Below are positions 2,055 to 20,420 of a stretch of DNA of 26,029 bases, piece after piece. The notes under the pieces were generated by a model, which was not told the DNA's origin, ran no database searches, and saw only the letters and a list, made by a program, of their open reading frames with translations. The stretch spans positions 1-26,029 of the IMG/VR virus record IMGVR_UViG_3300028917_000452, one strand, 5' to 3'. The DNA comes from a virus. A program made the position numbers and the translations under genes. Position 1 is the stretch's first letter. Each line of letters starts with the position of its first letter.

Positions 2055-2057
2055 ATT

Positions 2058-2072
2058 ATTACACCATGTAAT
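2058..2072. promoter_or_regulatory. Inverted repeat over the initiator ribosome binding site
   Basis: ATTACACCATGTAAT has perfect 6-base arms around a 3-base centre and ends 4 bases upstream of the initiator start codon (2054, minus strand), covering its weak ribosome binding site. It could be a protein operator or an RNA hairpin limiting initiator translation. Confidence 0.35.
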
Positions 2073-2125
2073 TTTATAAATCCAATTTTTCCAAAACTAA
2101 GAAAGGATCACATCCATATCCATAT

Positions 2126-2140
2126 TAACTTATAAAGTTA
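2126..2140. promoter_or_regulatory. Inverted repeat, possible operator
   Basis: TAACTTATAAAGTTA has 6-base arms around ATA and lies in the 110-base gap between the HTH gene and the initiator gene. It has the same 6-3-6 geometry as the iterons and the 2058 repeat but a different sequence. In this AT-rich DNA a chance match cannot be excluded. Confidence 0.25.
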
Positions 2141-2164
2141 GCACAAATTATAAACTTACTAAAA

Positions 2165-2395
2165 CTATTTTTTTAATAACGCAATATCCTCATTTAATTT
2201 TGCAATATTTTCATTACACCGATCGTACAATCGATGCAATAATGCAAACTCATGAGTTTGAGTAAAACTTTTTTCAGAATAATTCCAATACCGAACAGTA
2301 GTTATATTAAGATCAACAAGTCGTGCTATTTGATAATAAGTAAGATCATATTTTCTCATTATATCTTTGATTTTTGTATGTTTTTTATTTTTCAT
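2165..2395 (-). CDS. Small helix-turn-helix regulator
   Basis: A 76-residue protein if it starts at the ATG at 2395, preceded by GGCGGG 7 nt upstream. An ATG at 2410 or a TTG at 2422 are alternatives. The first 35 residues read as a helix-turn-helix (IMRKYDLTYYQIARLVDLNITTVRYW would place two helices around a short turn), followed by a helical, charged tail. It lies immediately downstream of a leftward promoter that is back-to-back with the rightward early promoter. That is the usual place for a Cro/CI-like control protein of a phage, so it probably regulates one or both arms. Not assignable to a named repressor. Confidence 0.6.
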   Translation of the reverse strand: MKNKKHTKIKDIMRKYDLTYYQIARLVDLNITTVRYWNYSEKSFTQTHEFALLHRLYDRCNENIAKLNEDIALLKK

Positions 2396-2432
2396 TATAA
2401 AACCCGCCATAAAATTTAACAAAATTTAGCCC

Positions 2433-2461
2433 ATTATAAATCAAAATTTCAAAAATCTCAA
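2433..2461 (-). promoter_or_regulatory. Leftward sigma70-type promoter
   Basis: On the minus strand TTGAGA (2461-2456) and TATAAT (2438-2433) are separated by exactly 17 nt. The predicted start near 2426 lies about 30 nt before the HTH gene ATG at 2395. It would drive the HTH gene and the replication genes to its left. Confidence 0.6.
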
Positions 2462-2469
2462 AAAAAATA

Positions 2470-2498
2470 TTGAATTTATATAAAATATATTATATAAT
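2470..2498 (+). promoter_or_regulatory. Rightward early sigma70-type promoter
   Basis: TTGAAT (2470-2475) and TATAAT (2493-2498) with a 17-nt spacer. Its -35 box is only 8 bp from the -35 box of the leftward promoter, so one regulator bound between them could control both. It reads into the Sak4-like gene. Confidence 0.6.
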
Positions 2499-2570
2499 TC
2501 GCTTAATTTTCATTTAGAATAAGATGAAAAGAGGGTATTTTTCTATTAATTTGACATGGAGAACATGGAA

Positions 2571-3425
2571 ATGAATAATCTTTTTCAAAAAGCTTCAAAA
2601 AAACAATCTAAACTTCGGTGTGCAATTTTTGGTCCTAGTGGTTCTGGCAAAACATTTACAGCATTGCGAATAGCAACTGGAATAAAAGGTACAATTGCTT
2701 TAATTGATACTGAACGAGGTTCTGCTTCAAAATATGCTGATCATTTTGTATTTGATGTAGCTGATTTAAATAATAAAGATATTAATAATTATATTGAATA
2801 TATAAATAATGCATCTGATTACGATATTCTTATTATTGATTCACTTACACATGGTTGGCAAGAATTAATAGAAGAAGTAGAAAAGTTAGCCCAAACAAAA
2901 TTTAGAGGTAATACATGGTCTGCATGGAGTTATGGAACTCCTAAACAACGAAAATTAATTAATGCTCTTTTATTTTTCCCAGGCCATATTATTGCCACTA
3001 TTCGCTCTAAAACTGAATGGACATCTGATGTTTATGTTGATGGGAATGGAAATAAGAAAACAAGACCAACACGTGTAGGTTTAGCTCCTGAACAAGGGAA
3101 AGGAATTGAATATGAATTTGATATTTTATTAGAAATGAATATTGATAATTTTGCTACGATTATTAAAGATCGAACAGGTAAATTTCAAGGTAAAATTATT
3201 GAAAAACCTGATGAAAATTTTGGAATTGATTTAATTGCATGGCTTGATGAAGGTGAAAAACCTTCTGATAATATTACTATGTTAGTTGATAATATTAATA
3301 CATTAATTGATCAACACAAAATTTCTTCTGAACAAATAAATTTATGGTTAGAGAAGGGAAATGCTTCCCAACTAAATGAACTCAAATTGAATACATTACA
3401 GGCAATTATACAAAAATATTCTTAA
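2571..3425 (+). CDS. Sak4-like recombination ATPase (AAA_24 family)
   Basis: A 284-residue P-loop ATPase. Counting from the ATG at 2571, the Walker A motif GPSGSGKT is at residues 21-28 and the Walker B strand ILIID ends at Asp90, followed by SLTHGW. The layout with the later NALLFFPGHIIATIRSK segment matches the phage ATP-binding protein family PF13479, which includes Sak4-type single-strand annealing or recombination mediators. It would act on phage DNA with a single-strand binding protein or resolvase; a RusA-type resolvase lies in the same operon. Two upstream in-frame ATGs (2556, 2565) exist, but the GGAG at 2558-2561 is well spaced only for 2571. It is the first gene of the rightward early operon. 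Confidence 0.75.
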   Translation: MNNLFQKASKKQSKLRCAIFGPSGSGKTFTALRIATGIKGTIALIDTERGSASKYADHFVFDVADLNNKDINNYIEYINNASDYDILIIDSLTHGWQELIEEVEKLAQTKFRGNTWSAWSYGTPKQRKLINALLFFPGHIIATIRSKTEWTSDVYVDGNGNKKTRPTRVGLAPEQGKGIEYEFDILLEMNIDNFATIIKDRTGKFQGKIIEKPDENFGIDLIAWLDEGEKPSDNITMLVDNINTLIDQHKISSEQINLWLEKGNASQLNELKLNTLQAIIQKYS

Positions 3426-3443
3426 TCACATGTGGAGTTTAAT

Positions 3444-3614
3444 ATGAATAATATAATTATAAAAAATGGGAATGAAGATTTATATTTTTCAACTAATTTA
3501 AGATATGTTGATTTTAATTCTTCAACATATAAAAACAATAAAAATTATAAAGATTTATTAATAACTTTAACTAAATCTTATAATGCATATAAAACAAAAT
3601 TCAAGAGGGTATAA
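3444..3614 (+). CDS. Small hypothetical protein (56 aa)
   Basis: A 56-residue Asn/Lys/Tyr-rich protein with no motif I recognise. The ATG at 3444 is chosen because GGAG lies 6 nt upstream; an in-frame GTG at 3432 would add four residues. It sits 18 bases after the ATPase gene and 2 bases before csrA, whose ribosome binding site lies within its last codons, so it is part of the early operon. Confidence 0.5.
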
Positions 3615-3616
3615 AA

Positions 3617-3814
3617 ATGTTAATTTTAGGCAGACGCTTTGGCGAATCAATTATGATTAATGATGATATTAAAATAACGGTTTTAACACCTGTTAATCAT
3701 GGTAAATGCATCAAAATCGGAATTGAGGCTCCCAAGGAAATTTCAGTACATCGTGAAGAAATATGGCATAAAATTCAATGTCAGAAACATTCTGAAGATT
3801 CTATAAAAACATAA
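3617..3814 (+). CDS. csrA: CsrA-family RNA-binding translational regulator
   Basis: A 65-residue CsrA homologue. The N-terminus [18 protein letters not shown] matches the first strands of bacterial CsrA, and [13 protein letters not shown] matches the C-terminal strand that carries the RNA-binding arginine (Arg46 here, Arg44 in Escherichia coli). The loop between the second and third strands (about residues 24-30) is two residues longer than in E. coli CsrA. The family binds GGA in the loops of mRNA leaders as a dimer and usually blocks translation. A phage copy could redirect host carbon or virulence control, or time phage gene expression. It has a GAGGG ribosome binding site within the end of the preceding gene. 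The identification is secure; its targets are unknown. Confidence 0.93.
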
Positions 3815-3831
3815 AAAATAAATGGATTATT

Positions 3832-4197
3832 ATGAGTAATAAAAATTTTGATTGTGAAGTCGAAGAAAGTTCAGGAAATGTATTTAAAGATATTGGCCTT
3901 CCTAATCCTGAAATAGAATTATTAAAAGCTAAATTAATGCATAAAATCAATCATATTATTAAAAATTCAGAATTAAGCCCATATAAAGTAATAAAAATTT
4001 TAGATACTCTTCCTTATAGAATATCTGCTTTAAAACAAGATAAATCTAATAAAAATCTTAAAGTATATGAAATCGTTTTTTCTAAACGAAAATCAATTAC
4101 ATTAGAAAAATTATTTGTTTCTTTATTCAAATTAAGCTATGACATAGATATTACAATAAGTAAAGGGAAGGGTGAATTAAAGGTTAATAAATGCTAA
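3832..4197 (+). CDS. HTH_37/HigA-type antitoxin-like regulator, no toxin partner
   Basis: A 121-residue protein. Residues 13-45 (SSGNVFKDIGLPNPEIELLKAK, here quoted only in part: GNVFKDIGLPNPEIELLKAK) match the start of the XRE-type DNA-binding family found as HigA/NigA-like antitoxins (PF13744, COG5606). The LSPYKVIKILDTLPYRISAL segment takes the helix-turn-helix position and SITLEKLFVSLFKLSYDIDI the C-terminal helix and strand. In toxin-antitoxin pairs a RelE/HigB-like toxin gene precedes such a gene; none is here, since the upstream gene is csrA. It may therefore be an orphan regulator or an anti-toxin decoy. A Lys/Asn-rich insert (about residues 65-85) is longer than usual. Confidence 0.7.
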   Translation: MSNKNFDCEVEESSGNVFKDIGLPNPEIELLKAKLMHKINHIIKNSELSPYKVIKILDTLPYRISALKQDKSNKNLKVYEIVFSKRKSITLEKLFVSLFKLSYDIDITISKGKGELKVNKC

Positions 4198-4215
4198 CAA
4201 ATCGATTCAAATTTA

Positions 4216-4233
4216 TATGAGAAAAAGTTCTAT
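4216..4233 (+). repeat. 18-bp direct repeat, copy 1 (copy 2 at 4591-4608)
   Basis: TATGAGAAAAAGTTCTAT occurs exactly twice: 3 bases upstream of the resolvase start codon and again near the 3' end of the same gene (4591-4608). This looks like a scar of local duplication or recombination; the upstream copy may be a leftover 3' end of an earlier resolvase copy. Confidence 0.5.
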
Positions 4234-4236
4234 TAA

Positions 4237-4653
4237 ATGAATAAAATACTAAATATTACAATTCCAGGAATTCCAGTTCCCAATAATACTAAAATAAGTA
4301 AATATAGATTTTATAAGCCTAAAAAAGTAAACGATTACAAAAAATATATTCAGCTAGAAGTTCAACAATATATGCGAAAACATGCTCTCAAATGCTCTCA
4401 AGAGCCGATTTATATGATTTTATGGATAGGGCTGCCCGTTCCTACCAGTTGGAGTAAAAAACGTCGAGAAATGGCTTTAAAGGGCGAAATAAAACACAAA
4501 ACTAAACCTGATGGCGAAAACTTTGCAATCTTAATAAAAAATGCTTTACAGAACATCGTTTATAAAAATGATTCGCAAATTTGTGTATATTATGAGAAAA
4601 AGTTCTATGTAGAACATCCTTATGTAAAAATTACAATTAAAGAGGTGAAATAA
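4237..4653 (+). CDS. rusA: RusA-type Holliday junction resolvase
   Basis: A 138-residue protein of the RusA family (PF05866), dimeric nucleases that cut four-way DNA junctions and help process recombining phage DNA. The N-terminal strand ITIPGIPVPN, the KPDGEN motif (residues 90-95) and YKNDSQI (109-115) are in the order and spacing of the family. In E. coli RusA the acidic residues Asp70, Asp72 and Asp91 bind metal: these align with Asp92, Glu94 and Asp112 here. The catalytic lysine (Lys76 in E. coli) aligns with Ile98. The Asp-to-Glu and Lys-to-Ile changes may lower or alter activity. The start has no clear ribosome binding site. It lies downstream of the Sak4-like gene, consistent with a recombination module. 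Confidence 0.82.
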   Translation: MNKILNITIPGIPVPNNTKISKYRFYKPKKVNDYKKYIQLEVQQYMRKHALKCSQEPIYMILWIGLPVPTSWSKKRREMALKGEIKHKTKPDGENFAILIKNALQNIVYKNDSQICVYYEKKFYVEHPYVKITIKEVK

Positions 4654-5093
4654 TGAATAGAAATTTTATAAATAGATTTAAATTTCGAGCTTGGTCGCCA
4701 CAATTAGCAACAATGACAATTCCATTAGAATATAATGAGGAATTTATTACTCTTCAAGGTGCAATACTCATGCAATCAACAGGAATATGTGATAAGAATC
4801 ATAAACTGATTTATGAAGGAGATATTTTGTTATTACCAGATATATTAGAAGATGGTAATTTACCTGCTGCAGTAGTTTTTAAAAATGGTGCTTTTGGAGT
4901 ATCAATTTCAGAAGCGACAGGAGGATTATATAAGCGTTTTTATTCTTTTGATGAATTTGATGAATTATTTAATGAAATAGCAGATGATTGTTTTAAAGAA
5001 ATAGAAAATATTGGAAATATTTTTGAAAATCCTGATAAAATACCAGAGAAAGATGTAGAATATATTCAAAAAAAATACTTTGATTTACAATGA
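4653..5093 (+). CDS. YopX-family phage protein
   Basis: A 146-residue protein with the YopX signature (PF09643): KFRAW at residues 10-14, MQSTGICDKNHKLIYEGDIL at about 40-60, and a following beta-rich segment. YopX proteins are common small phage proteins with an SH3-like beta barrel fold and no settled function. The start codon overlaps the stop of the resolvase gene (TAATG) and has GAGGTG upstream, so translation is coupled. Residues 105-140 are an acidic helical extension (FDEFDELFNEIADD) that is not part of the core family. Confidence 0.8.
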   Translation: MNRNFINRFKFRAWSPQLATMTIPLEYNEEFITLQGAILMQSTGICDKNHKLIYEGDILLLPDILEDGNLPAAVVFKNGAFGVSISEATGGLYKRFYSFDEFDELFNEIADDCFKEIENIGNIFENPDKIPEKDVEYIQKKYFDLQ

Positions 5094-5386
5094 AAACAGA
5101 TACAAAAATTATAATTAAAAAACGATTTGTCTTCTTACCGCGAATTTGCAAGAAATGCTTTTTTAAATATTGGTTTGCTCCAATATATCACGTTAAATTC
5201 TATGGCAAATGGATACTTTATCCGAATGCTAAAAATTTATGTGATTGTTATAGAAATTATATAGATTATTATTTATGCCTAAATTGTATTAAATTAGAAG
5301 CAGAACTTAGTAATCTTTCAATAAGAGAATATATTCAAAAAGAAAGTAAAATTTTATTAGATTCTTTCGGAAAAAAAGAAAAATGA
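5090..5386 (+). CDS. Hypothetical protein with paired cysteines (98 aa)
   Basis: A 98-residue basic protein with a Cys-Lys-Lys-Cys pair near residue 20 and further cysteines in LCDCY and CLNC in the second half. The two Cys-x2-Cys/Cys-x-Cys sites suggest a zinc-stabilised fold. The family is not recognised. It overlaps both neighbours by ATGA (5090-5093 and 5383-5386), so it is translated as part of the early operon. Confidence 0.55.
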   Translation: MKTDTKIIIKKRFVFLPRICKKCFFKYWFAPIYHVKFYGKWILYPNAKNLCDCYRNYIDYYLCLNCIKLEAELSNLSIREYIQKESKILLDSFGKKEK

Positions 5387-5823
5387 GTTTTGAAGATATT
5401 AGATATAAATATAATACCTCAGAAAAATTGATGGAATATTTTAAAGAATATTACTTAACATATCGAAAAGAACAGCTTTATAGTTTAAGCAATGAATTAT
5501 CTGAATATTTTAATGATTTAAATAACAAAATTTTCGATTTGAAAATTAATCTTAAAAAAGATTATCTTCTTAAAAAAATATCGTTTGATTCATGGGAGCA
5601 CTATCATATTGCACTCGACTTATCAAATCATAAGTTAAATAAAATAAAAGATATTCCAAGATTTATAAAAACTTCTATTGAATGGAATGATTATCTTGGT
5701 GGTGTAAGAGAAATATATATTTATGATAATTTAGATGATTTTATATGGTCGTTTAATAAAATAGAAAAAGATTTTAATGATTTAAAAATGGAGATAAATT
5801 ATGATAACAATAAAAGAAACTAA
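5383..5823 (+). CDS. Hypothetical acidic helical protein (146 aa)
   Basis: A 146-residue protein rich in Lys, Asp, Tyr and Leu, predicted by eye to be mostly helical (about residues 10-85 and 105-145). There are no transmembrane segments or recognisable motifs. Its ATG overlaps the previous stop (ATGA), which supports real translation. The function is unknown. Confidence 0.55.
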   Translation: MSFEDIRYKYNTSEKLMEYFKEYYLTYRKEQLYSLSNELSEYFNDLNNKIFDLKINLKKDYLLKKISFDSWEHYHIALDLSNHKLNKIKDIPRFIKTSIEWNDYLGGVREIYIYDNLDDFIWSFNKIEKDFNDLKMEINYDNNKRN

Positions 5824-5854
5824 ATCAATTATATATGCGTATATTCAAAGGTAA
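5801..5854 (+). CDS. Possible 17-residue micro-ORF
   Basis: An ATG with GGAG 7 nt upstream (5790-5793) opens a 17-codon frame that overlaps the end of the preceding gene and stops just before the next one (ATG at 5861). The good ribosome binding site is the only support. It may serve to couple translation to the membrane protein gene. Confidence 0.25.
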   Translation: MITIKETKSIIYAYIQR

Positions 5855-5860
5855 ATCTTA

Positions 5861-6064
5861 ATGCTTAAATTTACTTTCAAATCGACAGGATTTTTAGGGT
5901 TATTAACGATACTATTTATTGCTTTTAAATTAACTCATATAATACATTGGTCATGGTGGTGGGTTTTGGCACCCCTTTGGGTACCAACATTTTGCTGGTT
6001 GTTTATAATAAGTTTAATATTAACAGTATTATTTATAATGCGAATTAATTCTGATCGGTGGTAA
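5861..6064 (+). CDS. TM Fragile-X-F-like phage membrane protein
   Basis: A 67-residue protein with two hydrophobic segments (about residues 9-25 and 40-60) separated by IIHWSWWWVLAPLWVP. This Trp-rich hairpin is the hallmark of the small phage proteins annotated as transmembrane Fragile-X-F. It should sit in the inner membrane as a helical hairpin. Its role is unknown; such genes are usually in early or accessory phage operons, as here. It lies 3 bases upstream of the methyltransferase gene. Confidence 0.75.
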   Translation: MLKFTFKSTGFLGLLTILFIAFKLTHIIHWSWWWVLAPLWVPTFCWLFIISLILTVLFIMRINSDRW

Positions 6065-6067
6065 TTA

Positions 6068-7243
6068 ATGAAATGGCATAATGAAAAGCGCAAATTATCG
6101 GAATTAAAGCCAACAAAATATAATCCGCGTAAATTAGATAAAAAACAAGAAGATGATTTAACAAAATCACTTACTTCATTTGATTTAGCTGATCCTCTTA
6201 TAATCAATAAAAATAATATAATTATTGGTGGTCATCAACGTTATAAAATTCTCAAAAAAAAGGGAATAAAAGAAGTTGATGTCCGTGTTCCAGATATTGA
6301 ATTATTAGAAAAACAAGAAAAAGAACTCAATTTGAGATTAAACAAAAATATTGGAGATTGGGATTTTGATTTATTAAAACAATTTGATTCAGAATTTTTG
6401 TTAGATATTGGGTTTACAATAGATGGATTAAATTTTGAAATTGAAAAACCTCAAGAAATTATTGAAGATGAATTACCTCAAAATATAGAATCTAAAGCTA
6501 AACTTGGCGATTTATTTGAATTAGGCAGACATCGATTATTATGTGGGGATTGTACAATTGCTGAAAACGTTCAAAAATTGATACAAAATGATATATCAAA
6601 ATTAATGATTACTGATCCTCCATATGGTGTAAATTATGATCCAGAATGGCGAGATGGTTATGGGTTAAATCTGGGGAATAGAAGAAAAGGCATAGTCAAT
6701 AACGATAATATTTATGATTGGTCTATAATTTATGATTTATTTAAACCTCAAATAGTTTATATTTGGCATTCAGGTAAATTTACTTCTTTCGTAGCTGAAG
6801 GATTAATTAATTCAGATTACGATTTAATTTCCCAGATTATTTGGTATAAACAGCATTTTGTATTATCACGTGGAGATTATCATTGGCAGCATGAACCATG
6901 TTGGTATGCGGTAAAAAAAAAATGTAATCATAATTGGCAAGGTGCACGAGATCAAGCAACTATTTGGGAAATTAAAAATAATAACTTTGGTAATCCTCAC
7001 CGTGAAGAAAGTTGGGATCATAGTACTCAAAAACCAATGGAATGTATGGCCAAACCTATTTTGAATAATTCAAAAAAAGATGAGATAATTGTTGATCCAT
7101 TTCTTGGGACTGGAACAACTTTAATTGCTGCAGAGCAGCTTAACCGTATTTGTTATGGAATGGAAATAGAACCTAATTATGTTGATATAATTATTGCAAG
7201 ATGGGAACAATTTACAGGACAAACAGCAAAATTAATAAATTAA
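6068..7243 (+). CDS. ParB-domain / DNA amino-methyltransferase fusion
   Basis: A 391-residue protein. The N-terminal 90 residues are a ParB/Srx-like domain (YNPRK at 18-22 and GGHQRY at 54-59). The rest is an adenine-N6 or cytosine-N4 methyltransferase: the catalytic DPPY is at 183-186 and the S-adenosylmethionine-binding FLGTGTT at 345-351. The catalytic motif precedes the cofactor motif, the beta-class order. Fusions of this kind are common in phages and prophages. No restriction enzyme gene lies nearby, so it is an orphan enzyme that probably methylates phage DNA to evade restriction or regulates transcription. The target sequence cannot be read from the gene. The TAA/ATG spacing to the previous gene is 3 bases. 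Confidence 0.88.
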   Translation: MKWHNEKRKLSELKPTKYNPRKLDKKQEDDLTKSLTSFDLADPLIINKNNIIIGGHQRYKILKKKGIKEVDVRVPDIELLEKQEKELNLRLNKNIGDWDFDLLKQFDSEFLLDIGFTIDGLNFEIEKPQEIIEDELPQNIESKAKLGDLFELGRHRLLCGDCTIAENVQKLIQNDISKLMITDPPYGVNYDPEWRDGYGLNLGNRRKGIVNNDNIYDWSIIYDLFKPQIVYIWHSGKFTSFVAEGLINSDYDLISQIIWYKQHFVLSRGDYHWQHEPCWYAVKKKCNHNWQGARDQATIWEIKNNNFGNPHREESWDHSTQKPMECMAKPILNNSKKDEIIVDPFLGTGTTLIAAEQLNRICYGMEIEPNYVDIIIARWEQFTGQTAKLIN

Positions 7244-13956: not shown

Positions 13957-14610
13957 TCAATCGTTACTATAACGAAATACAACACGCGTTTCTGCAGGTT
14001 TTAACTTAGTAAAAAGACAGCGTAAAACTCCAGTATCATCTAATCCAAGTAAAATAGGAAATTGAGCAGGAAAAACACTAGATGGCCTTAAACGATCTTT
14101 AAAAATTACAACCCATGTAAAACGAATTTGTTTTGCACTTGCACCTAATAAAATCGGAAATTGCATCGGAAATACTCCATGTGAAGTACCCGTTTCGATT
14201 TCAATATCAAATCCCAAAAAACAAGCTAAAAAAATAAAATCTTCTTGTGTTTGTACATTTGATAAAGCTAACTTAGCAATTATTTGCCGTCTACGCATAT
14301 CTAATGATTTACCTTCAACTTTAAAACAAGTATCTGGGATACCTAATGCCCTTTCCCATTCAGTTAAAAGTGCATCAGTTGTCCATATATAATAATCATC
14401 AGCTAATTCTTTTAATTTATTTTCTATTTTAATAATTTCAGTAGAAACACCTGTTAAAAATTTCCTTAAATTTGAATCTTCAATATTTTTCGCGCGATAA
14501 AATTCGCCATTAGGTAAATAATTTGCTAATGCTTGTGTATTGGCAATTAAACTATATTTTAAATAGCGATCTTGCGGAGGAATTATTTGTATAGTACAAT
14601 TAGTTGTCAT
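13957..14610 (-). CDS. Baseplate protein, Mu gp48 / DUF2313 family
   Basis: A 217-residue protein of the YmfQ/DUF2313 family (PF10076), which includes Mu gp48, a baseplate wedge component. Features are LANYLPNGEFYRA at residues 28-40, the helix around WTTDALLTEWERALGIPD at 76-93, and RRRQIIAKL at 106-114. An 11-residue motif VFPxQFPILLG is repeated at 146-156 and 179-189. In Mu-like phages this gene directly follows the gp47 homologue; here the gp47 homologue ends at 18639 and 4 kb of opposite-strand cassette lies between. No ribosome binding site is visible and a promoter -10 box lies only 7 bases upstream, so the mRNA may be leaderless. Confidence 0.82.
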   Translation of the reverse strand: MTTNCTIQIIPPQDRYLKYSLIANTQALANYLPNGEFYRAKNIEDSNLRKFLTGVSTEIIKIENKLKELADDYYIWTTDALLTEWERALGIPDTCFKVEGKSLDMRRRQIIAKLALSNVQTQEDFIFLACFLGFDIEIETGTSHGVFPMQFPILLGASAKQIRFTWVVIFKDRLRPSSVFPAQFPILLGLDDTGVLRCLFTKLKPAETRVVFRYSND

Positions 14611-14616
14611 TCATCT

Positions 14617-14625
14617 ATTATACCA
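14617..14625 (-). promoter_or_regulatory. Extended -10 promoter restarting the leftward genes
   Basis: On the minus strand TGGTATAAT is an exact extended -10 element (TGnTATAAT). No good -35 box is present 17 bp upstream, which such promoters do not need. Transcription would begin at or within a base or two of the gp48-homologue ATG (14610). It would supply the fibre and lysis genes with transcription independent of the tail operon interrupted by the cassette. Confidence 0.5.
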
Positions 14626-14732
14626 ATTTCTTGTTTTCTGAAAAGATAGAGAGGTTTTTATTATTAATTAATTTAATTGTAATATTTGCCATATAAGAAA
14701 ATTACCTGGATGTAACTCTATCAAAGTAAGAA

Positions 14733-14767
14733 AAGCCCGATATTCGCAAAATGAAAATATCGGGCTT
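14733..14767. terminator. Bidirectional-looking hairpin terminator
   Basis: AAGCCCGATATT (14733-14744) and AATATCGGGCTT (14756-14767) form a perfect 12-bp stem with an 11-nt loop. A T-rich stretch follows on the plus strand (ATTTCATTTTTTCTTC), and TTCTTACTTTG follows on the minus strand. It lies between the leftward gp48 gene and the rightward cassette promoter. The most useful role would be to stop leftward transcripts that run antisense through the cassette. Confidence 0.8.
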
Positions 14768-14792
14768 ATTTCATTTTTTCTTCTAAAAAATG

Positions 14793-14821
14793 TTGCATAT
14801 TTATAAAAATATTTATATAAT
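14793..14821 (+). promoter_or_regulatory. Cassette promoter
   Basis: TTGCAT (14793-14798) and TATAAT (14816-14821) with a 17-nt spacer, reading into the accessory cassette. The predicted start near 14828 falls inside the first of two inverted repeats, leaving a leader of about 80 nt before the first ATG. Confidence 0.7.
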
Positions 14822-14824
14822 ACG

Positions 14825-14874
14825 AATGTAATAATTTAAAACTATTACATTTATGGATAATCTTAAGGATTATC
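14825..14874 (+). promoter_or_regulatory. Two inverted repeats at the cassette transcription start and leader
   Basis: AATGTAATA (14825-14833) pairs with TATTACATT (14843-14851), and GATAATC (14856-14862) pairs with GATTATC (14868-14874). Both are perfect and lie immediately downstream of the -10 box. They could be operators for a repressor acting at the start site or leader hairpins affecting mRNA stability. No riboswitch class is recognised. Confidence 0.5.
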
Positions 14875-14907
14875 TTAGTTTTAATTAAATTATTTAAGGA
14901 GATTATA

Positions 14908-15105
14908 ATGAATAATAAATCTAACATTTATCATCGACCTCGATCTTGCTCTAACCTTAATGCGAATAGTTATTTAATAGCTATTCGCAAACTTAATGAT
15001 CGAACAGAACACGAAAAATTTATAAATGATGCTGAATGGTATGCATTTAATGAATATGATCGTTTTTCATCATTAAGAGTATCAGAAACTGAAATATTTG
15101 GTTAA
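14908..15105 (+). CDS. First cassette gene, hypothetical (65 aa)
   Basis: A 65-residue protein with a strong AAGGAGA ribosome binding site 6 nt before the ATG. It is polar, with Arg/Asn/Ser-rich ends and a FINDAEWYAFNEYDRF centre. No motif is recognised. As the promoter-proximal gene of the cassette it should be well expressed. The aromatic, acidic centre is loosely reminiscent of the tiny paralogues further on (a helix with Asp/Glu, Ala and aromatic residues), but this is not strong enough to call homology. Confidence 0.6.
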   Translation: MNNKSNIYHRPRSCSNLNANSYLIAIRKLNDRTEHEKFINDAEWYAFNEYDRFSSLRVSETEIFG

Positions 15106-15116
15106 GGAGAAAAATT

Positions 15117-15188
15117 ATGAATACATATAAATTTGATAATGCCAAAATATGTAAAATAACAACAAAACAATTAGGAGAACAATTGTGA
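15117..15188 (+). CDS. Truncated member of the tiny LGE-tail family (23 aa)
   Basis: A 23-residue frame with AAGGAGA upstream. Its C-terminus ICKITTKQLGEQ is identical to that of the 49-residue gene at 16824, and the underlying DNA is identical for 37 bases (15147-15183 and 16932-16968). The N-terminus keeps only MNTYKFDN, so about 25 codons have been lost in frame. Its stop overlaps the GTG start of the first HEAT gene (GTGA), and its TTA-GGA-GAA codons provide that gene's ribosome binding site. It may persist mainly as a translated leader. Confidence 0.55.
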   Translation: MNTYKFDNAKICKITTKQLGEQL

Positions 15189-15619
15189 ATATAGAAGAAA
15201 AAAATAAACTCAGAGTTATTGACTCTTTGATAAAAACTCTCGACGATAAGTATTCATCAGAGGTCCGCGCTAGCTCCGCAGAGGTTTTAGGAAAGCTAGG
15301 ATATGCTGAGCGGAAGGTTATTGATGCTTTGATAAAAGCTCTCGGGGATCAGTATTCTTGGCAAGTCCGCGACCGCGCCGCAGAGGCTTTAGGAAATCTG
15401 GGACATGCTGAGCCTCACGTTATTGATGCTTTGATTAAAGCTCTCGGGGATCAGTATTCAGATGTCCGCGCCCGCGCCGCAGAGGCTTTAATAAAGCTGG
15501 AACATACTAATCCAAGAGTTATTGATATCTTAATTGATGCCACCTTACATCCTGAGTCAAAAATCCGTAAAAATGCCGTAGAGGCTTTAGGGAAGCTAAA
15601 ATATTCAAAAGAGAATTAA
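15185..15619 (+). CDS. HEAT-repeat protein 1 (4 repeats)
   Basis: A 144-residue protein of four helical HEAT-like (PBS-lyase type) repeats, each about 31-35 residues, of the form DALIKALGDQYSxxVRARAAEALGKLGHAEPxV. The GTG start is supported by the same sequence context (AATTAGGAGAACAAT then NTG AAT) at the starts of the other two HEAT genes. HEAT solenoids bind other proteins; no enzymatic residues are seen, and the PBS-lyase label refers only to the repeat fold. Codons in the VRARAAEAL segments are GC-rich (CGC, GCC, CTG), unlike the surrounding genes. The last repeat has diverged (HPESKIRKNAVEALGKL). Cytoplasmic; partner unknown. Confidence 0.85.
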   Translation: MNIEEKNKLRVIDSLIKTLDDKYSSEVRASSAEVLGKLGYAERKVIDALIKALGDQYSWQVRDRAAEALGNLGHAEPHVIDALIKALGDQYSDVRARAAEALIKLEHTNPRVIDILIDATLHPESKIRKNAVEALGKLKYSKEN

Positions 15620-15629
15620 TTAAGAAGAA

Positions 15630-15726
15630 AATTAGGAGAACAATCATGAATGTAGAAGAAAAAAATGAATCGAAAATTATTGAATCTTTGATAAAAGCTC
15701 TCGGCGATCCGTATTGGCAAGTCCGT
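15630..15726 (+). repeat. 97-bp exact direct repeat (second copy 16954-17050)
   Basis: The ribosome binding site, start codon and first 27 codons of HEAT gene 2 are identical over 97 bases to those of HEAT gene 3. Identity this long, including synonymous positions, indicates recent duplication or gene conversion. Confidence 0.9.
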
Positions 15727-16479
15727 GCCAATACTGCAGAGGCTTTAGGAAAACTGGGACATGCTGACCAGCAGCTTTTAACCCAGGTTACTGAATCTTT
15801 GATAAAAGCTCTCGAGGATGAGGAATCAGATGTCCGCGCCAACGCTGCAGAAGCTTTAGGAAAGCTGGGGCACGCTGAACCGAAGATTATAGATGCTTTG
15901 ATAAAAACTCTCGGTGATCAGAATGCTTGGCGAGTCCGCGCCAGCGCCGCCGAGGCTTTAGGAAAGCTGAAGCATATTGAGCCACAACTTTTAACCCAGG
16001 TTACTGAATCTTTGATAAAAGCTCTCGAGGATGAGGATGAAGACGTCCGCACCCGCGCCGCAAAGGCTTTAGGAAAGCTGGCAGAGACTTTAGTAAAGCT
16101 GGGACATGCTGACCCGCAGCTTTTAACCACGGTTATTGAATCTTTGATAAAAGCTCTCGACGATAAGGATGAAGACGTCCGCGCCAGCGCCATAGAGGCT
16201 TTAGGAAAGCTGGCAGAGGCTTTAGTAAAGCTGGGACATGCTGACCCGCAGCTTTTAACCCCGGTTATTGAATCTTTGATAAAAGCTCTCGGAGATCAGT
16301 ATTCTTGGCTAGTCCGCGCCTACACTGTAGAGGCTTTAGGAAAGCTGGGACATGCTGACCAACAGCTTTTAACCCCTGTTATTGAATTTTTAATAAAAGC
16401 TCTCGGCGATCCGTCTTGGCGAGTCCGCGCCAACGCTGCAGAGGCTTTAGGAAATCTAAAATATTTAGAGGAGAATTAA
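15646..16479 (+). CDS. HEAT-repeat protein 2 (7 repeats)
   Basis: A 277-residue protein built of seven HEAT-like repeats with an 8-residue charged cap (MNVEEKNE). Two repeat lengths occur: a short form of about 32-38 residues and a longer form with an extra LAETLVKLGHADPQLLT or LAEALVKLGHADPQLLT helix (repeats 4 and 5). Residues in the turn before VR vary strongly between repeats (PYWQ, EESD, NAWR, DEDED, KDED, YSWL, PSWR) while the helices are almost identical, which points to a variable binding face. It shares exact DNA blocks with HEAT gene 3 and has the same C-terminal ending as HEAT gene 1 (LKYxxEN). The ribosome binding site is TTAGGAGAACAATC. Confidence 0.87.
   Translation: MNVEEKNESKIIESLIKALGDPYWQVRANTAEALGKLGHADQQLLTQVTESLIKALEDEESDVRANAAEALGKLGHAEPKIIDALIKTLGDQNAWRVRASAAEALGKLKHIEPQLLTQVTESLIKALEDEDEDVRTRAAKALGKLAETLVKLGHADPQLLTTVIESLIKALDDKDEDVRASAIEALGKLAEALVKLGHADPQLLTPVIESLIKALGDQYSWLVRAYTVEALGKLGHADQQLLTPVIEFLIKALGDPSWRVRANAAEALGNLKYLEEN
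15750..15841 (+). repeat. 92-bp exact direct repeat (second copy 17320-17411)
   Basis: One whole HEAT repeat (GHADQQLLT through ESDVRA) is identical at the DNA level between HEAT genes 2 and 3, although it is the second repeat in one and the last in the other. This supports repeat shuffling rather than simple whole-gene duplication. Confidence 0.9.
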
Positions 16480-16481
16480 TA

Positions 16482-16661
16482 ATGAATATAGCTGAATTAG
16501 AAAAGAAAATTCGACAACAAGAAAATGAAATAGATTATTTATTAGACATTAAAGAAGAAGCCGATATTTTAATAGAAATAACGAACGATCATTATGAAAG
16601 ATTAGAAGCAGCCATAAAAGCATATGAATTATGGGAAAAGGAGATTAAAAATGACAAATAA
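16482..16661 (+). CDS. Small coiled-coil protein (59 aa)
   Basis: The ATG at 16482 is preferred, with GGAG upstream inside the end of HEAT gene 2; the longer frame from 16416 overlaps HEAT coding sequence. The 59-residue product is highly charged and has heptad-like spacing of Leu/Ile (LEKKIRQQENEIDYLLDIKE), so it should form a coiled coil. No family is recognised. It may dimerise or pair with a cassette partner. Confidence 0.6.
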   Translation: MNIAELEKKIRQQENEIDYLLDIKEEADILIEITNDHYERLEAAIKAYELWEKEIKNDK

Positions 16662-16680
16662 ATATTACAAGGAGAAATAA
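16651..16680 (+). CDS. Possible 9-codon minigene
   Basis: An ATG preceded by AAAAGGAGA opens a 9-residue frame whose last codons (AAG GAG AAA TAA) form the ribosome binding site of the next gene, which begins at the very next base (16681). It overlaps the end of the coiled-coil gene. It is probably a coupling leader or a decayed gene. Confidence 0.3.
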   Translation: MTNKYYKEK

Positions 16681-16821
16681 ATGAAAACATATTATGTAGT
16701 TGAAATACCTTTCGTTAGATTTTTTACTGATTCTTTTGAAAGAGCAATTGAAGAACAGCAAATGATTGCCGAAATGACTGGAAAAACTCCAAATATTTCT
16801 CAAATTGAATTAGGAGAATAG
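16681..16821 (+). CDS. Tiny LGE-tail family protein A (46 aa)
   Basis: A 46-residue protein beginning MKTYYVVEIPF, with a helix TDSFERAIEEQQMIAEMTGK and the ending QIELGE. It is paralogous to the next gene (MKLYILENPY, then DSLERAVKAARYFEEEN and the ending KQLGEQS): same N-terminal strand, same D-S-x-E-R-A helix, same LGE end. A strong AAGGAGA ribosome binding site lies 4-5 nt upstream. The codons for LGE (TTA GGA GAA) serve as the ribosome binding site of the following gene. The function is unknown; the strand-helix layout suggests a very small alpha/beta domain. Confidence 0.65.
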   Translation: MKTYYVVEIPFVRFFTDSFERAIEEQQMIAEMTGKTPNISQIELGE

Positions 16822-16823
16822 CG

Positions 16824-16973
16824 ATGAAATTATATATTTTAGAAAATCCATATTTACCATTTGAATATAGTTTTGATTCATTAGAACGAGCTGTTAAAGC
16901 AGCTCGATATTTTGAAGAAGAAAATAATCTTATATGTAAAATAACAACAAAACAATTAGGAGAACAATCATGA
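16824..16973 (+). CDS. Tiny LGE-tail family protein B (49 aa)
   Basis: A 49-residue paralogue of the preceding gene, with the DSLERAVKAARYFEEEN helix and the C-terminus ICKITTKQLGEQS. Its TGA overlaps the ATG of HEAT gene 3 (ATGA), and its LGE codons form that gene's ribosome binding site, so the two are translationally coupled. The same 37-base 3' end occurs before HEAT gene 1, where the rest of the gene has been lost. The repeated pairing suggests the tiny protein and the HEAT protein act together or are inherited as one unit. Confidence 0.68.
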   Translation: MKLYILENPYLPFEYSFDSLERAVKAARYFEEENNLICKITTKQLGEQS

Positions 16974-17452
16974 ATGTAGAAGAAAAAAATGAATCGAAAA
17001 TTATTGAATCTTTGATAAAAGCTCTCGGCGATCCGTATTGGCAAGTCCGTACCAATGCTGCAGAGGTTTTAGGAAAGCTGGGACATGCTGACCCGCAACT
17101 TTTAACCATGGTTATTGACTCTTTGATAAAAGCTATCGGCGATTATAATTCATCTTCTGTCCGCGCCCGCGCCGCCGAGGCTTTAGGAAATCTGGCAGAG
17201 GCTGAGCCGCAGCTTTTAACTCTCATTGTTGATTCTTTAATAAAAGCTCTCAGTGATCAGGAGTGGGGAGTCCGCGACTGCGCCGCAGAGGCTTTAGGAA
17301 ATCTGGCAGAGACTTTAGTAAAACTGGGACATGCTGACCAGCAGCTTTTAACCCAGGTTACTGAATCTTTGATAAAAGCTCTCGAGGATGAGGAATCAGA
17401 TGTCCGCGCCAGCGCCGTAGAGGCTTTAGGAAAGATAATAGAAAAAAAGTAA
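16970..17452 (+). CDS. HEAT-repeat protein 3 (4 repeats)
   Basis: A 160-residue protein of four HEAT-like repeats. Its first 27 codons are identical in DNA to HEAT gene 2, and its last repeat is identical to the second repeat of that protein. The two middle repeats differ, with variable turn residues YNSSS and QEWG before VR. It ends LGKIIEKK, unlike the LKYxxEN ending of the other two, so its 3' end was either cut or replaced. It is coupled by ATGA overlap to the tiny LGE-tail gene upstream. It is expected to be a cytoplasmic binding scaffold; the partner is unknown. Confidence 0.86.
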   Translation: MNVEEKNESKIIESLIKALGDPYWQVRTNAAEVLGKLGHADPQLLTMVIDSLIKAIGDYNSSSVRARAAEALGNLAEAEPQLLTLIVDSLIKALSDQEWGVRDCAAEALGNLAETLVKLGHADQQLLTQVTESLIKALEDEESDVRASAVEALGKIIEKK

Positions 17453-17453
17453 T

Positions 17454-17609
17454 ATGAAATATAAAATTTGGGAATTTATTGCTAAAGGTTTATTTATTAC
17501 AATATTAATTCTTAATGGATTTTGGATTTTTAATCATTTATGTTATTGCAATAAACATATTAAATATATAAATTATGAGGTAAAAAATAATGATCGATTT
17601 ATTTACTAA
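17454..17609 (+). CDS. Small single-span membrane protein (51 aa)
   Basis: A frame of 51 codons starting one base after the HEAT gene 3 stop. Residues 11-28 (KGLFITILILNGFWIFNH) form one transmembrane segment, followed by a Cys-Tyr-Cys and a basic tail. It overlaps the next gene by 20 bases in another frame. No ribosome binding site better than AAAAAAAG is seen, so translation may depend on coupling to HEAT gene 3. The function is unknown. Confidence 0.5.
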   Translation: MKYKIWEFIAKGLFITILILNGFWIFNHLCYCNKHIKYINYEVKNNDRFIY

Positions 17610-17883
17610 AATTTTTATAACTATAATTATAGTTATCTTATTAAGTTTTATTCCAACAATCTTTTGGATAAATACAAATACAAATTTTCCTCGTGCTTTA
17701 CATATTTTGCGCGAAAATGGATATCGTTATATTGAATATACGGGATATAAATGGTTTAAATGCGCTCATGAAGATTGGTCACATACAGGTTTTATTGCTA
17801 CAAATATAATAACTCATAAACGAATATCGGGGACTATATGTTGCGGTTTGATTTTTAAAAATTGTACTATTAGGTTTGATTAG
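17590..17883 (+). CDS. Membrane-anchored phage small protein (HTGF...CxGLxFKxxTIRF type)
   Basis: A 97-residue protein with an N-terminal membrane segment (about residues 7-26, KIFITIIIVILLSFIPTIF) and a soluble domain containing GYKWFKCAHEDWSHTGF and a C-terminal ISGTICCGLIFKNCTIRF. I recognise the latter pattern (HTGFxA ... GxVCxGLxFKxxTIRF) from small hypothetical proteins scattered across phages. The function is unestablished. The topology suggests anchoring in the inner membrane. It has a GAGG ribosome binding site about 8 nt before the ATG, within the upstream gene. Confidence 0.7.
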   Translation: MIDLFTKIFITIIIVILLSFIPTIFWINTNTNFPRALHILRENGYRYIEYTGYKWFKCAHEDWSHTGFIATNIITHKRISGTICCGLIFKNCTIRFD

Positions 17884-17933
17884 AATGAAATTATTTTACA
17901 AAAACCAATTAATAATGAAGAGGAGAAATAATT

Positions 17934-18137
17934 ATGCTTTCCCCATCAACTTCTGATTTTGTTATATTATTTATAATTATTAGTATTATTGCTTTTTTTA
18001 TTATTATAGCTTTATATGCAATTTGTAAAACAGCAATAGCCGAAGAAAAGGCTACGAGTTATTTAGCTCATAAAGAAGATGAACGAAGAAAAAAGTTAAA
18101 AGAAGAAAAAAAAAGAAATGAAAGAATCAACTCATAA
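17934..18137 (+). CDS. Single-span membrane protein with basic coiled tail (67 aa)
   Basis: A 67-residue protein with one long hydrophobic segment (about residues 9-32) and a Lys/Arg/Glu-rich cytoplasmic tail (KEDERRKKLKEEKKRNER). A GAGGAGA ribosome binding site lies upstream. The last 20 bases overlap the next gene. The topology resembles small holins or spanin-like proteins, but it lies in the cassette and not beside the endolysin. The role is unknown. Confidence 0.6.
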   Translation: MLSPSTSDFVILFIIISIIAFFIIIALYAICKTAIAEEKATSYLAHKEDERRKKLKEEKKRNERINS

Positions 18138-18330
18138 TTTTGTTAAAGGATGGAAAAGTTTAATGGTTTTTTCTCTCCATGATTTTGATGAATTACCTAT
18201 AGAAACACCTGAGGAACGAATGAATAAAATAACAAAAAGAATTAAAAATGCTTTTGAAAAAGCATTTGGTGAATTAGATACTGAATATAAACAATTGGAG
18301 AAAAATAATGAAAATAAAGAAATTAATTGA
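18118..18330 (+). CDS. Hypothetical charged helical protein (70 aa)
   Basis: A 70-residue protein, helical and charged in its second half (PEERMNKITKRIKNAFEKAF). It overlaps the preceding gene by 20 bases and the next by 23 bases. Its last seven codons, ending ENKEIN, lie in the 23-bp direct repeat and are the same as the end of the next gene. No family is recognised. Confidence 0.5.
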   Translation: MKESTHNFVKGWKSLMVFSLHDFDELPIETPEERMNKITKRIKNAFEKAFGELDTEYKQLEKNNENKEIN

Positions 18331-18628
18331 GGAATTAACAAAATTAAATCCTGAAGAGAAAGTAACTGATATGACACTTAATTGTCTTCCTCATGCAAGA
18401 TATTCAGTCATATCTTTAACAGAAGCAACAATACAAATAATGAATGTTTTCAATCGAGAAGAATTGGCTAAAGCCAAGCCTGTAATAGGTGTCATTGCTT
18501 ATGATAAGGTTGAAAATGTTTATTATTATTATGATAGCAATGGTTGGCAAAAAATAGATTCAAAAGATGATTCAATTTTTATAATAGAAAAATTAGGAAA
18601 AAAAGATGAAAATAAAGAAATTAATTGA
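18308..18628 (+). CDS. Last cassette gene, with a fibre-like YYYY...W segment (106 aa)
   Basis: A 106-residue protein starting MKIKKLIEELTKLNPEEKV, with GGAG upstream. The second half contains VIAYDKVENVYYYYDSNGW, which aligns with LIVYDIDENAYYYYNGTTW of the fibre gene at 8800-9714 (about half of 22 positions identical). The N-terminal 25 residues resemble small phage proteins that begin with a short helix followed by NPExKV. It ends KDENKEIN, encoded by the second copy of the 23-bp repeat. The function is unknown; the shared segment hints at surface or fibre ancestry. Confidence 0.6.
   Translation: MKIKKLIEELTKLNPEEKVTDMTLNCLPHARYSVISLTEATIQIMNVFNREELAKAKPVIGVIAYDKVENVYYYYDSNGWQKIDSKDDSIFIIEKLGKKDENKEIN
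18308..18628 (+). repeat. 23-bp direct repeats bracketing the last cassette gene
   Basis: Exact copies lie at 18308-18330 and 18606-18628, beginning ATGAAAATAAAGAAATTAAT. In one frame each encodes ENKEIN-stop (the end of a gene), and in another the start MKIKKLIE. The second copy therefore opens a vestigial 13-codon frame (18606-18647) where a further gene would begin. This fits loss or gain of whole genes by recombination between such junctions. Confidence 0.85.
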
Positions 18629-18638
18629 AAATTTAAAA

Positions 18639-19952
18639 TTAGACTGACCATTGAATATCCCCTAAAATTGCTATTTCACGAGTAGCAATAGAAATATTAC
18701 CTGTAGGAGTACTTAATGAGAATGCTCTTACAAATTGCCCTGTTTCTGGATCAATTGTTTGATAAATAGCAGACCTATAACCATCTTCCGCTAAATCAAT
18801 GCCTACTTCTGGAACTTCTTTAAAAAATTGTTCTAAATTAGCCTCAATAGCATTCCTCATAGCAGTAGTATCTGGGTCTAATAAACTAAATGTAAAATTA
18901 ACTATAACAGGAGTTGGTGCTAAAACAATTAAATCTACATCTTCCATTTCAACAGGTTTTATTGTTAATAATAAATCTTTAACTTCATTTATTTCTTCAG
19001 CATTTGGAATTGGATTTTCATCATTATCTCGCATAAAAAGAACTTCGCATTGCCCAGCATCTGGTGTAGCACTTGCCACAAAAACACGAGTAACACCAGG
19101 TTGAGTTTTTGCCTTAGCTTCAATATCGGCAACACTAAAATGTGCAATTGGATTTTGATAAGCATCAATATAACGATTACGATATTGATCATCAGTTTCA
19201 GCATCAGCTCCACCTGATAATCCTTCATATTCTGTATAAGCTGTCGAATCAATTCCTGCTATTGGAGTAACTAATGTTAAAGCATTTCCTCCATCAACAT
19301 TAGTTGCTAAACCAAAATCAATTGAACTTAAATTTAAATCTGCAAATGTGGCTGTTGATTGTATTGTTCCTGTAGCAGGCGTTGTAGGAGTTCCTGTCAT
19401 TTCATATTGAAATGTTTTTAATCCAGTAACAATGATTGAAGCTGTAATATTATATTCTGATTGATCGGCTCCACTTATAGTTACATTAAGATTTGAGGCA
19501 TAATTATGTTCAGATAATGTCGTTACTGTTGCAGTTGTTCCATTTCTAACAATTGAATCAACATTTATAGTATATTCCGTAATTTTATAATCATCATTGG
19601 TTGAATACTGCTTTCCATCTGCAGTTTGTAATGATGTATCAACAGGAATAACTGTATCTAAAATTCCTGTTGCATTCGCTTTTCCTTTTGCACCAAATGC
19701 AGGATTTATTGTAATGCCTTTAAAATTTCCCCATCTCTCAGCAAAATCTCCCGATGCAGTATCAGGAAATAATTCATTTTGTAAATCTTGAATAACTGAA
19801 TAAAGATCAAATATAACTCCACTATAAGCAATTATTAATGTCCAGATAAAAGAAGCTCTTAAAAATGGATCACTATTTGGCAACTGATTTTGCACATCAG
19901 TTTTCATACGATTAGATATTTCAGTTCGGCTTTCTGGATATATTAAACTCAT
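18639..19952 (-). CDS. Baseplate J-like protein, Mu gp47 family
   Basis: A 437-residue baseplate wedge protein (PF04865). Typical features are the N-terminal region to GDFAERWGNFKGI (residues 68-80), ATGILDTVIPVDTSLQTADGK at about 94-114, and GGADAETDDQYRNRY at 247-261, followed by the C-terminal beta and helical part. An extra module of about 70 residues (roughly 128-196, Thr/Asn-rich, with SIVRNGTTATVTTLSEHNY) interrupts the usual core. It is one of several wedge proteins around the tail spike that transmit sheath contraction. It ends 11 bases from the convergent end of the cassette with no visible terminator. The gp48 partner resumes only at 14610. Confidence 0.9.
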   Translation of the reverse strand: MSLIYPESRTEISNRMKTDVQNQLPNSDPFLRASFIWTLIIAYSGVIFDLYSVIQDLQNELFPDTASGDFAERWGNFKGITINPAFGAKGKANATGILDTVIPVDTSLQTADGKQYSTNDDYKITEYTINVDSIVRNGTTATVTTLSEHNYASNLNVTISGADQSEYNITASIIVTGLKTFQYEMTGTPTTPATGTIQSTATFADLNLSSIDFGLATNVDGGNALTLVTPIAGIDSTAYTEYEGLSGGADAETDDQYRNRYIDAYQNPIAHFSVADIEAKAKTQPGVTRVFVASATPDAGQCEVLFMRDNDENPIPNAEEINEVKDLLLTIKPVEMEDVDLIVLAPTPVIVNFTFSLLDPDTTAMRNAIEANLEQFFKEVPEVGIDLAEDGYRSAIYQTIDPETGQFVRAFSLSTPTGNISIATREIAILGDIQWSV

Positions 19953-19961
19953 TTAAAATTC

Positions 19962-20420
19962 TCAAATAAATGTATTATCCCATATTGAATAATACTTTGA
20001 TTCTACTATATTCTGAGATCGTATAAAATCGATTCTTATAATTAATTTTGTCTTATCAATGCCCTGATATTCAGCATTAACATCAATTTTTTCTAAATAA
20101 CCATCATCAATAAACCATTGAAAAGCATTTTGGGTATATGTTATTGAATTATTTAATGTTTCTTGTGTAGTACGTGCTTGTGATAAAAGCCATAATTTAG
20201 AACCAATTTCAAATTTATCAAAAGGCAATAATAAATTGCCCCACCATCCTCTTTGTAACTCAGGTTTTGGAATTTCACTATCGGCAGCACGTTTTTCACA
20301 CATTAATGTCATATTAATTGCCGTTTCAAAACCATCTGTTTTTTTGAAATCACCATTAACAAATGATATATCCCAATAATCTTTATCTGTTTTATTTAAT
20401 GCTATATCTATATCAGCCAT
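19962..20420 (-). CDS. Baseplate protein, Mu gp46 family
   Basis: A 152-residue protein of the phage GP46 family (PF07409). Characteristic segments are WDISFVNGDF near the start, the ETAINMTLMCEKRAADSEI helix region, and QRGWWGNLL (about residues 57-65). It is a baseplate wedge component comparable to T4 gp25-type proteins. It sits 9 bases upstream of the gp47 homologue, as in Mu-like phages. Confidence 0.88.
   Translation of the reverse strand: MADIDIALNKTDKDYWDISFVNGDFKKTDGFETAINMTLMCEKRAADSEIPKPELQRGWWGNLLLPFDKFEIGSKLWLLSQARTTQETLNNSITYTQNAFQWFIDDGYLEKIDVNAEYQGIDKTKLIIRIDFIRSQNIVESKYYSIWDNTFI

Follow-up and report, generated by a model that had tools for sequence, protein, structure and literature searches.

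Host-takeover and counter-defence proteins are known to come from the accessory cassettes of phages, yet many genes in these cassettes are small orphans that offer no mechanism to test. Such cargo has been described before in the form of morons and antisense accessory loci, and an antisense position and a differing composition are given among their traits in the portions of PMC4378225 and PMC7067206 available to us. Repeat-protein genes are likewise known as phage cargo from the eukaryotic association module of phage WO, which carries ankyrin and TPR proteins (PMC5062602, available in part), and the accessible part of PMC11309003 reports ankyrin phage genes and no HEAT-repeat ones. Judged by titles and the beginnings of abstracts, in a coverage that mostly leaves aside subscription journals, we recognised no description of HEAT-repeat morons. 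Natural HEAT-like repeats underlie the alphaReps, artificial binders whose variable positions are 18, 19, 22, 23, 26 and 30 (PMC3754942, available part). Here we analyse a cassette of opposite-strand genes, three of them encoding HEAT-repeat proteins, that separates the baseplate genes gp47 and gp48 in a metagenome virus (IMG/VR record IMGVR_UViG_3300028917_000452; 26,029 bp, classed as linear, which often means a fragment). The whole of this stretch is referred to as the window.

In the window, a gp48-like baseplate wedge gene (13957..14610, − strand, 217 aa; Phage_Mu_Gp48 PF10076, E = 9.3e-19; phrog_203, 7.5e-30) forms the left flank of the cassette and a gp47-like Baseplate_J gene (18639..19952, − strand, 437 aa; PF04865, 2.2e-40) the right flank, with a GP46 gene (19962..20420, − strand) upstream of gp47. 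All three genes are intact and keep their usual order and orientation. The gap between gp47 and gp48 measures 4,028 bp and is filled with + strand open reading frames (ORFs; 14908-18628), which thus lie exactly between the two genes and antisense to the tail module. An earlier note on this DNA, made without database searches, had pointed out a 4-kb opposite-strand block at this position; the block is real, with its genes beginning at 14908.

The note had also held that gp47 and gp48 homologues are neighbours, and this is borne out in relatives. A first scan (8 viral loci) and a profile scan (best 80 of 183), with two loci in common, gave 86 distinct loci, many of them fragmentary records; 83 loci yielded a gp47 ORF and 77 both genes, the window being counted in each. 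The two genes adjoin, with gaps of −35 to +48 nt, in 75 of the 77 loci (window included), and the junction is closed in 66 of 68 clusters after collapsing gp47 proteins at 90% identity. This count leaves out four loci (L007-L010) in which no gp47 ORF passed the first threshold, and six with gp47 and no gp48 match, five of which (L004, L036, L042, L071 and L077) end at most 257 nt from gp47. In the sixth, L006, the genes were later found to be adjacent (weak gp48 match, 1.9e-4), and L095 has no insert at gp47-gp48; both were scored after the main count. L096 has a gp48 match and no gp47 match, and L094 is the same contig as L011.

The two exceptions are the window and L005. In L005, the gap of 5,555 bp is filled with same-strand genes (1268-6802), among which are a glycine-rich ORF, a gene for a tail fibre with a Peptidase_S74 match and two genes for fatty-acid desaturases. 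As this is the sole other occupied junction and its cargo is unlike that of the window, we dropped the idea, raised in the note, that the junction is a hotspot for cargo. The nearest relative by gp47, L011 (52% identity over 440 columns), also has the closest gp48 of eight relatives aligned (50%), and its order is gp46-gp47-gp48-fibre without an insert. Both flanks of the cassette therefore resemble one relative and keep its order, and we rejected a simple chimera, that is, a misjoined contig. Antisense blocks as such are not rare, since 17 of the 82 other loci have antisense gene runs elsewhere near the tail genes, by greedy and crude ORF calls. Judged from gene order, these comparisons show the cassette to be an insertion between gp47 and gp48.

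A blastp search of the 12 cassette proteins against 6,904 ORFs from the 86 loci gave no match (E ≤ 1e-2), while gp47 used as a control in the same search gave 119 matches; among 47 relative records taken from these loci, none had a HEAT_2 match. The earlier note named as a refutation the case that these are structural genes conserved in all related phages, which the 86 loci do not bear out. The HEAT proteins could still serve this one phage in its tail or baseplate, as components or as assembly chaperones, given that their genes adjoin gp47 and gp48 and that L005 shows that tail-fibre genes can occupy this junction. This explanation has to contend with the strand of the cassette, which is opposite to the tail operon, with the differing composition of the HEAT genes and with the lack of any match in the relatives' loci. 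PHROG matches of the HEAT proteins are moreover weak (best 8.1e-6, HEAT-B to phrog_37949, of unknown function), and a tail-assembly-chaperone PHROG appears for the cassette only at 0.035. We rejected it as the main reading on account of strand and missing matches in relatives, and regard it as very improbable; by the sequence-based tests made, the cassette is not a tail part.

As the note had stated, there are three HEAT-repeat genes, with four, seven and four repeats in Pfam scans: HEAT-A (15185..15619, + strand, 144 aa; HEAT_2, 5.9e-26), HEAT-B (15646..16479, + strand, 277 aa; HEAT, 4e-46) and HEAT-C (16970..17452, + strand, 160 aa; HEAT, 1.9e-27), with a repeat spacing of 33-45 residues. 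Their GC content at third codon positions (GC3) is 0.37, 0.41 and 0.39, respectively, as compared to 0.02-0.25 in 27 other window genes tested, which makes them compositional outliers. Ala/Arg-rich repeat codons could contribute to this excess. The GC3 values suggest that the HEAT genes may have come from a higher-GC source, or else that they keep an unusual composition. The cassette thus shares with morons its position and, for the three HEAT genes only, its composition.

HEAT-B and HEAT-C are identical at 187 of 207 nt (90%) over leader and start, and all three HEAT genes have in front of them either a short ORF or what is left of the last codons of one. Before HEAT-A this is a 23-aa mini-ORF (15117..15188, + strand) that has its last codons in common with a 49-aa ORF (16824..16973, + strand) located before HEAT-C; their stop codons overlap the GTG start of HEAT-A (GTGA) and the ATG start of HEAT-C (ATGA), respectively. 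Before HEAT-B only the last codons are left. As leaders, starts and upstream last codons recur in this way, leader-HEAT units were duplicated in place, and the nucleotide alignment shows the HEAT genes to be copied together with their translation-start leaders. The tiny coupled paralogues of the earlier note correspond to two adjacent ORFs, the 49-aa one and another of 46 aa (16681..16821, + strand), their paralogy being judged by eye, together with a DNA repeat.

Such partial copies invite the explanation that the cassette came in by accident and is neutral or decaying, on its way to being lost, or that it is an assembly artefact at repeats. The 23-aa mini-ORF and the recurring start of the gene at 18308 would fit with loss, and the identity between HEAT-B and HEAT-C can mislead assembly. 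On the other hand, all 12 cassette ORFs are open, 10 of the 12 starts have Shine-Dalgarno-like leaders (by eye), the ratio of nonsynonymous to synonymous differences (pN/pS) between repeats is below 1, and the L011-like flanks in conserved order argue against a simple chimera. We consider decay or artefact improbable.

HEAT-B gave a confident predicted model, an α-solenoid with a predicted local distance difference test score (pLDDT) of 87.9 and a predicted template-modelling score (pTM) of 0.85. In sequence comparison with solved structures, an alphaRep artificial binder came first for HEAT-B (8.6e-62), and HEAT-C matched a synthetic fusion protein best and alphaReps after it. In Foldseek, the HEAT-B model matched the alphaRep chain 4xl5_C with template-modelling (TM) scores of 0.72/0.81 and a root-mean-square deviation of 2.1, and in VIA-align the same pair reached Z 25.4 over 219 residues at 45% identity. 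The top six VIA-align matches lie at Z 24.4-25.5, compared to at most 22.5 for Integrator, huntingtin, PP2A and armadillo proteins, although helical repeats score high in structure comparison generally. The HEAT proteins therefore seem to be short α-solenoids close to alphaRep binders in sequence and fold, the fold being shown by prediction for HEAT-B.

We then placed the alphaRep variable positions on the HEAT repeats by eye and compared 15 repeats over 25 columns. Mean entropy was 1.47 bits at the alphaRep positions and 0.68 elsewhere (permutation P = 0.0145), a pattern of variation that fits with a binding face. The HEAT proteins resemble alphaReps, and the natural HEAT-like repeats behind them, in sequence, in predicted fold and, in part, in the enrichment of variation at binding positions. 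They differ in being phage-encoded, in their spacing (33-45 residues versus about 31 in the aligned alphaRep chain), in the near-fixed position 26 and in that binding is a prediction here. At one variable HEAT position (15185-17452), nearly all codons could, as read by eye, be derived from an AAC-like template by changes in its two A positions. These codons raised the idea of a diversity-generating retroelement, which we do not claim, as the window is a fragment and no dedicated reverse-transcriptase search was made.

Relatives of the HEAT proteins were not found in viral contigs, genome contigs or phage records (E ≤ 1e-5). The contigs were searched by two profile scans with N-terminal patterns only, six exact peptides and one degenerate pattern, so that distant HEAT proteins could be missed. 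Among viral predicted structures there were two matches at E ≤ 0.001, the best (4.5e-5) being a pithovirus protein, and the uncultured-phage repeat protein A0A6J5NW00 came next at 7e-3. Within the reach of these N-terminal and peptide patterns, no close alphaRep-like HEAT array was thus seen in another phage among the viral contigs, phage records and viral structures searched. On plasmids, 43 records matched the HEAT proteins, all at less than 60% identity and spread over many free-living bacteria and archaea.

The best of these plasmid matches carries the annotation of a NACHT-domain protein (36.8% identity, 2e-19), and in PADLOC, where 10 of the 12 ORFs were scanned, the HEAT proteins match only HEAT-like parts of larger defence models (best 1.3e-15). 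These matches bear on the possibility that the HEAT-only proteins are decoys, which would mimic the HEAT repeats that serve as a sensor in defence proteins of the host, NACHT proteins among them, and would titrate a phage signal or a partner. At 36.8% identity, though, many HEAT arrays would match; the NACHT-annotated gene has 373 codons, lies among transposases and is NACHT by annotation, and we judged the PADLOC matches to be generic. A decoy function is accordingly among the least probable explanations that we considered.

Adjacent to HEAT-C, the cassette encodes small hydrophobic proteins, the membrane call resting on the best 19-residue hydropathy. The 97-aa protein (17590..17883, + strand) has an N-terminal hydrophobic helix (2.71) followed by a phrog_902 domain (2.7e-12), and the 67-aa protein (17934..18137, + strand) a strongly hydrophobic stretch (3.49) and a charged tail. 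The 51-aa protein (17454..17609, + strand), for which no family was found, has a moderately hydrophobic stretch (1.95); as gp47 and the fibre reach 1.76 and 1.77, this value is weak. Of the three small membrane proteins proposed in the earlier note, two are thus well supported and the third is doubtful.

The 17590 protein is matched by 965 phage records in tblastn, and in one of these records the matching gene, which adjoins goF, cef and motB, bears a note of similarity to T4 gp39.1. While the C-terminal domain of the 17590 protein is that of the phrog_902/T4 gp39.1-like family, the N-terminal hydrophobic helix is an addition of this protein and of its full-length relatives in L090 and L091. 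The predicted model consists of a helix followed by four strands at modest confidence (pLDDT 74.9), with no match in the PDB at E ≤ 0.001. Apart from this family, phrog_37949 and the HEAT models, family matches of the cassette (PHROG) were weaker.

In L090 (2609-5485) and L091 (521-3417), the relative of the 17590 protein lies after a head-morphogenesis gene, in a head-operon cassette that uses both strands and comprises the phrog_902 membrane protein, an ankyrin protein, an AKS low-complexity repeat protein and a helix-turn-helix gene. These two loci are near-identical and therefore count as one independent parallel. Like the cassette in the window, they combine a small membrane protein of this family with neighbouring repeat-protein genes within an operon of structural genes; unlike it, they occupy the head region and carry ankyrin and low-complexity repeats rather than HEAT repeats.

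The ankyrin protein of L090/L091 is compatible with a symbiosis module, in which a phage of an intracellular bacterium would carry repeat proteins that act on the eukaryotic host, as proposed for the phage WO ankyrins. The low GC of the window and the precedent of the phage WO module (in the part of PMC5062602 noted above) would agree with this idea, as would a methyltransferase (6068-7243), whose best match in two collections searched, at 48% over its length, is on Candidatus Megaera (Rickettsiales) plasmids, compared to 38.7% for its best phage match. The host signals conflict, however, as the best match of the AAA ATPase (2556-3425) is on a Leptospira plasmid (58.5% over residues 10-236), and only the methyltransferase among 37 window proteins matched the two Megaera plasmids. 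The plasmid matches of the HEAT proteins, moreover, belong to many free-living bacteria and archaea. The cassette resembles the phage WO module in having repeat-protein genes as cargo, but these are HEAT rather than ankyrin/TPR, and Pfam scans of the cassette gave no latrotoxin-like or similar domain, in contrast to that module. We regard a symbiosis module as unlikely, albeit less so than decay, a decoy or a tail function.

Between gp48 and the first cassette gene, an inverted repeat (14723..14777; about −20 kcal/mol on either strand) forms a hairpin that is terminator-like in both directions and is absent from the list of the terminator scan. It is followed on the + strand by a candidate promoter, TTGCAT-N17-TATAAT (14793..14821; TATAAT at 14816), found by reading the sequence; it has a weak −35 element and is missing from the sites that the promoter scan listed. 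Two palindromes come next (14826..14874, + strand), which may be an operator or 5′ leader hairpins. We dropped the idea of an operator common to other phage promoters, as the palindrome occurs once in the window.

Based on these observations, we tentatively suggest, at somewhat less than even confidence, that the cassette is a multi-gene, moron-like antisense insertion that places host-protein-binding HEAT solenoids beside membrane proteins and is expressed apart from the late tail genes. The best-supported function would be the binding of host proteins by the predicted alphaRep-like solenoids. Each HEAT protein would bind at least one host protein via its face of variable positions, and the target, once bound, would be blocked, sequestered or kept close to the membrane proteins that the operon also encodes. 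Expression would probably be separate from the late tail operon, as the opposite strand and the T4 39.1-like gene suggest, and would fall into the early phase of infection or, should the phage be temperate, into the lysogenic state. The net effect could be interference with the host, the exclusion of rival phages, or counter-defence.

What stands from the moron proposal of the earlier note is an accessory insertion outside the conserved tail, in view of the closed junction in 75 of 77 loci, the lack of cassette matches in 86 loci and the outlying HEAT genes. Like a prophage moron, as portrayed in the available portions of the literature, the cassette lies between genes that adjoin in relatives, is antisense to lytic genes and is partly different in composition; it differs in being multi-gene and about 4 kb long, in its HEAT solenoid cargo and in having only a candidate promoter. 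The note had further called the module undescribed. This fails for its general type, as morons and antisense loci have been described and relatives of the 17590 protein are found in 965 phage records, and it narrows to the alphaRep-like HEAT array, for which no close match was seen in the other phages searched.

Several results weigh against the binding-cassette interpretation. Only 3 of the 12 cassette ORFs look foreign, because the nine small ones share the composition of the rest of the phage, and repeats such as those of HEAT-B and HEAT-C can be misassembled. AlphaReps, being consensus HEAT-like proteins, would be the best match for any consensus-like HEAT array. Position 26, variable in alphaReps, is nearly invariant in the HEAT repeats, and the alphaRep set does not include two of the columns that vary most (−3 and one in helix 1). 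In addition, pN/pS between repeats is 0.63 at the alphaRep positions and 0.65 in the framework; positive selection on the binding face was therefore tested and left no sign, and diversification by selection is not demonstrated. As to separate expression, promoter-like sites are not above chance (30 versus 31.7 in shuffles), and the three palindromic sites in 14611-14907 have P = 0.08 against first-order Markov simulations. By terminator scan and sequence reading, no strong terminator was seen after the cassette, the only strong hairpin being on its 5′ side. Finally, no integrase or repressor family was found among the window proteins scanned, the window being a fragment, so that a temperate lifestyle lacks support, which slightly lowered our confidence in the interpretation as a whole.

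A further-reaching and considerably less likely version would have the leader-HEAT units copied and reshuffled within one operon into a repertoire of natural alphaRep-like binders that the phage carries and recombines, and whose different binding faces would inhibit or tether proteins of the host or of rival phages with the help of same-operon membrane partners. If so, phages would own a natural counterpart of a laboratory scaffold library. Irrespective of this extension, the cargo has a predicted engineerable binding fold and named candidate contact positions, and partners can therefore be fished directly.

The other cassette ORFs, all on the + strand, encode a 65-aa protein without a family (14908..15105) and proteins of 59 aa (16482..16661) and 70 aa (18118..18330) without a confident family. 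The last ORF (18308..18628, 106 aa) had no relatives in the searches made. DNA around its start (18290-18338) recurs at 18588-18636, at the right edge of the cassette and beside the gp47 stop codon.

Family scans place an early + strand block in the window, with genes for an AAA ATPase, RusA, a YopX-like protein and a DNA methyltransferase, together with replication genes and a long − strand tail module comprising tape measure, DNA_circ_N and gp44-, gp46-, gp47- and gp48-like genes. Rfam gave 0 matches at the gathering threshold. At 1591-1732, inside a replication-protein ORF, there are two 69-nt direct repeats that are 91% identical, each with two copies of the palindrome AAGTCGGATTTTCCGACTT; they resemble the iterons of an origin, here inside a lambda-O-like gene.

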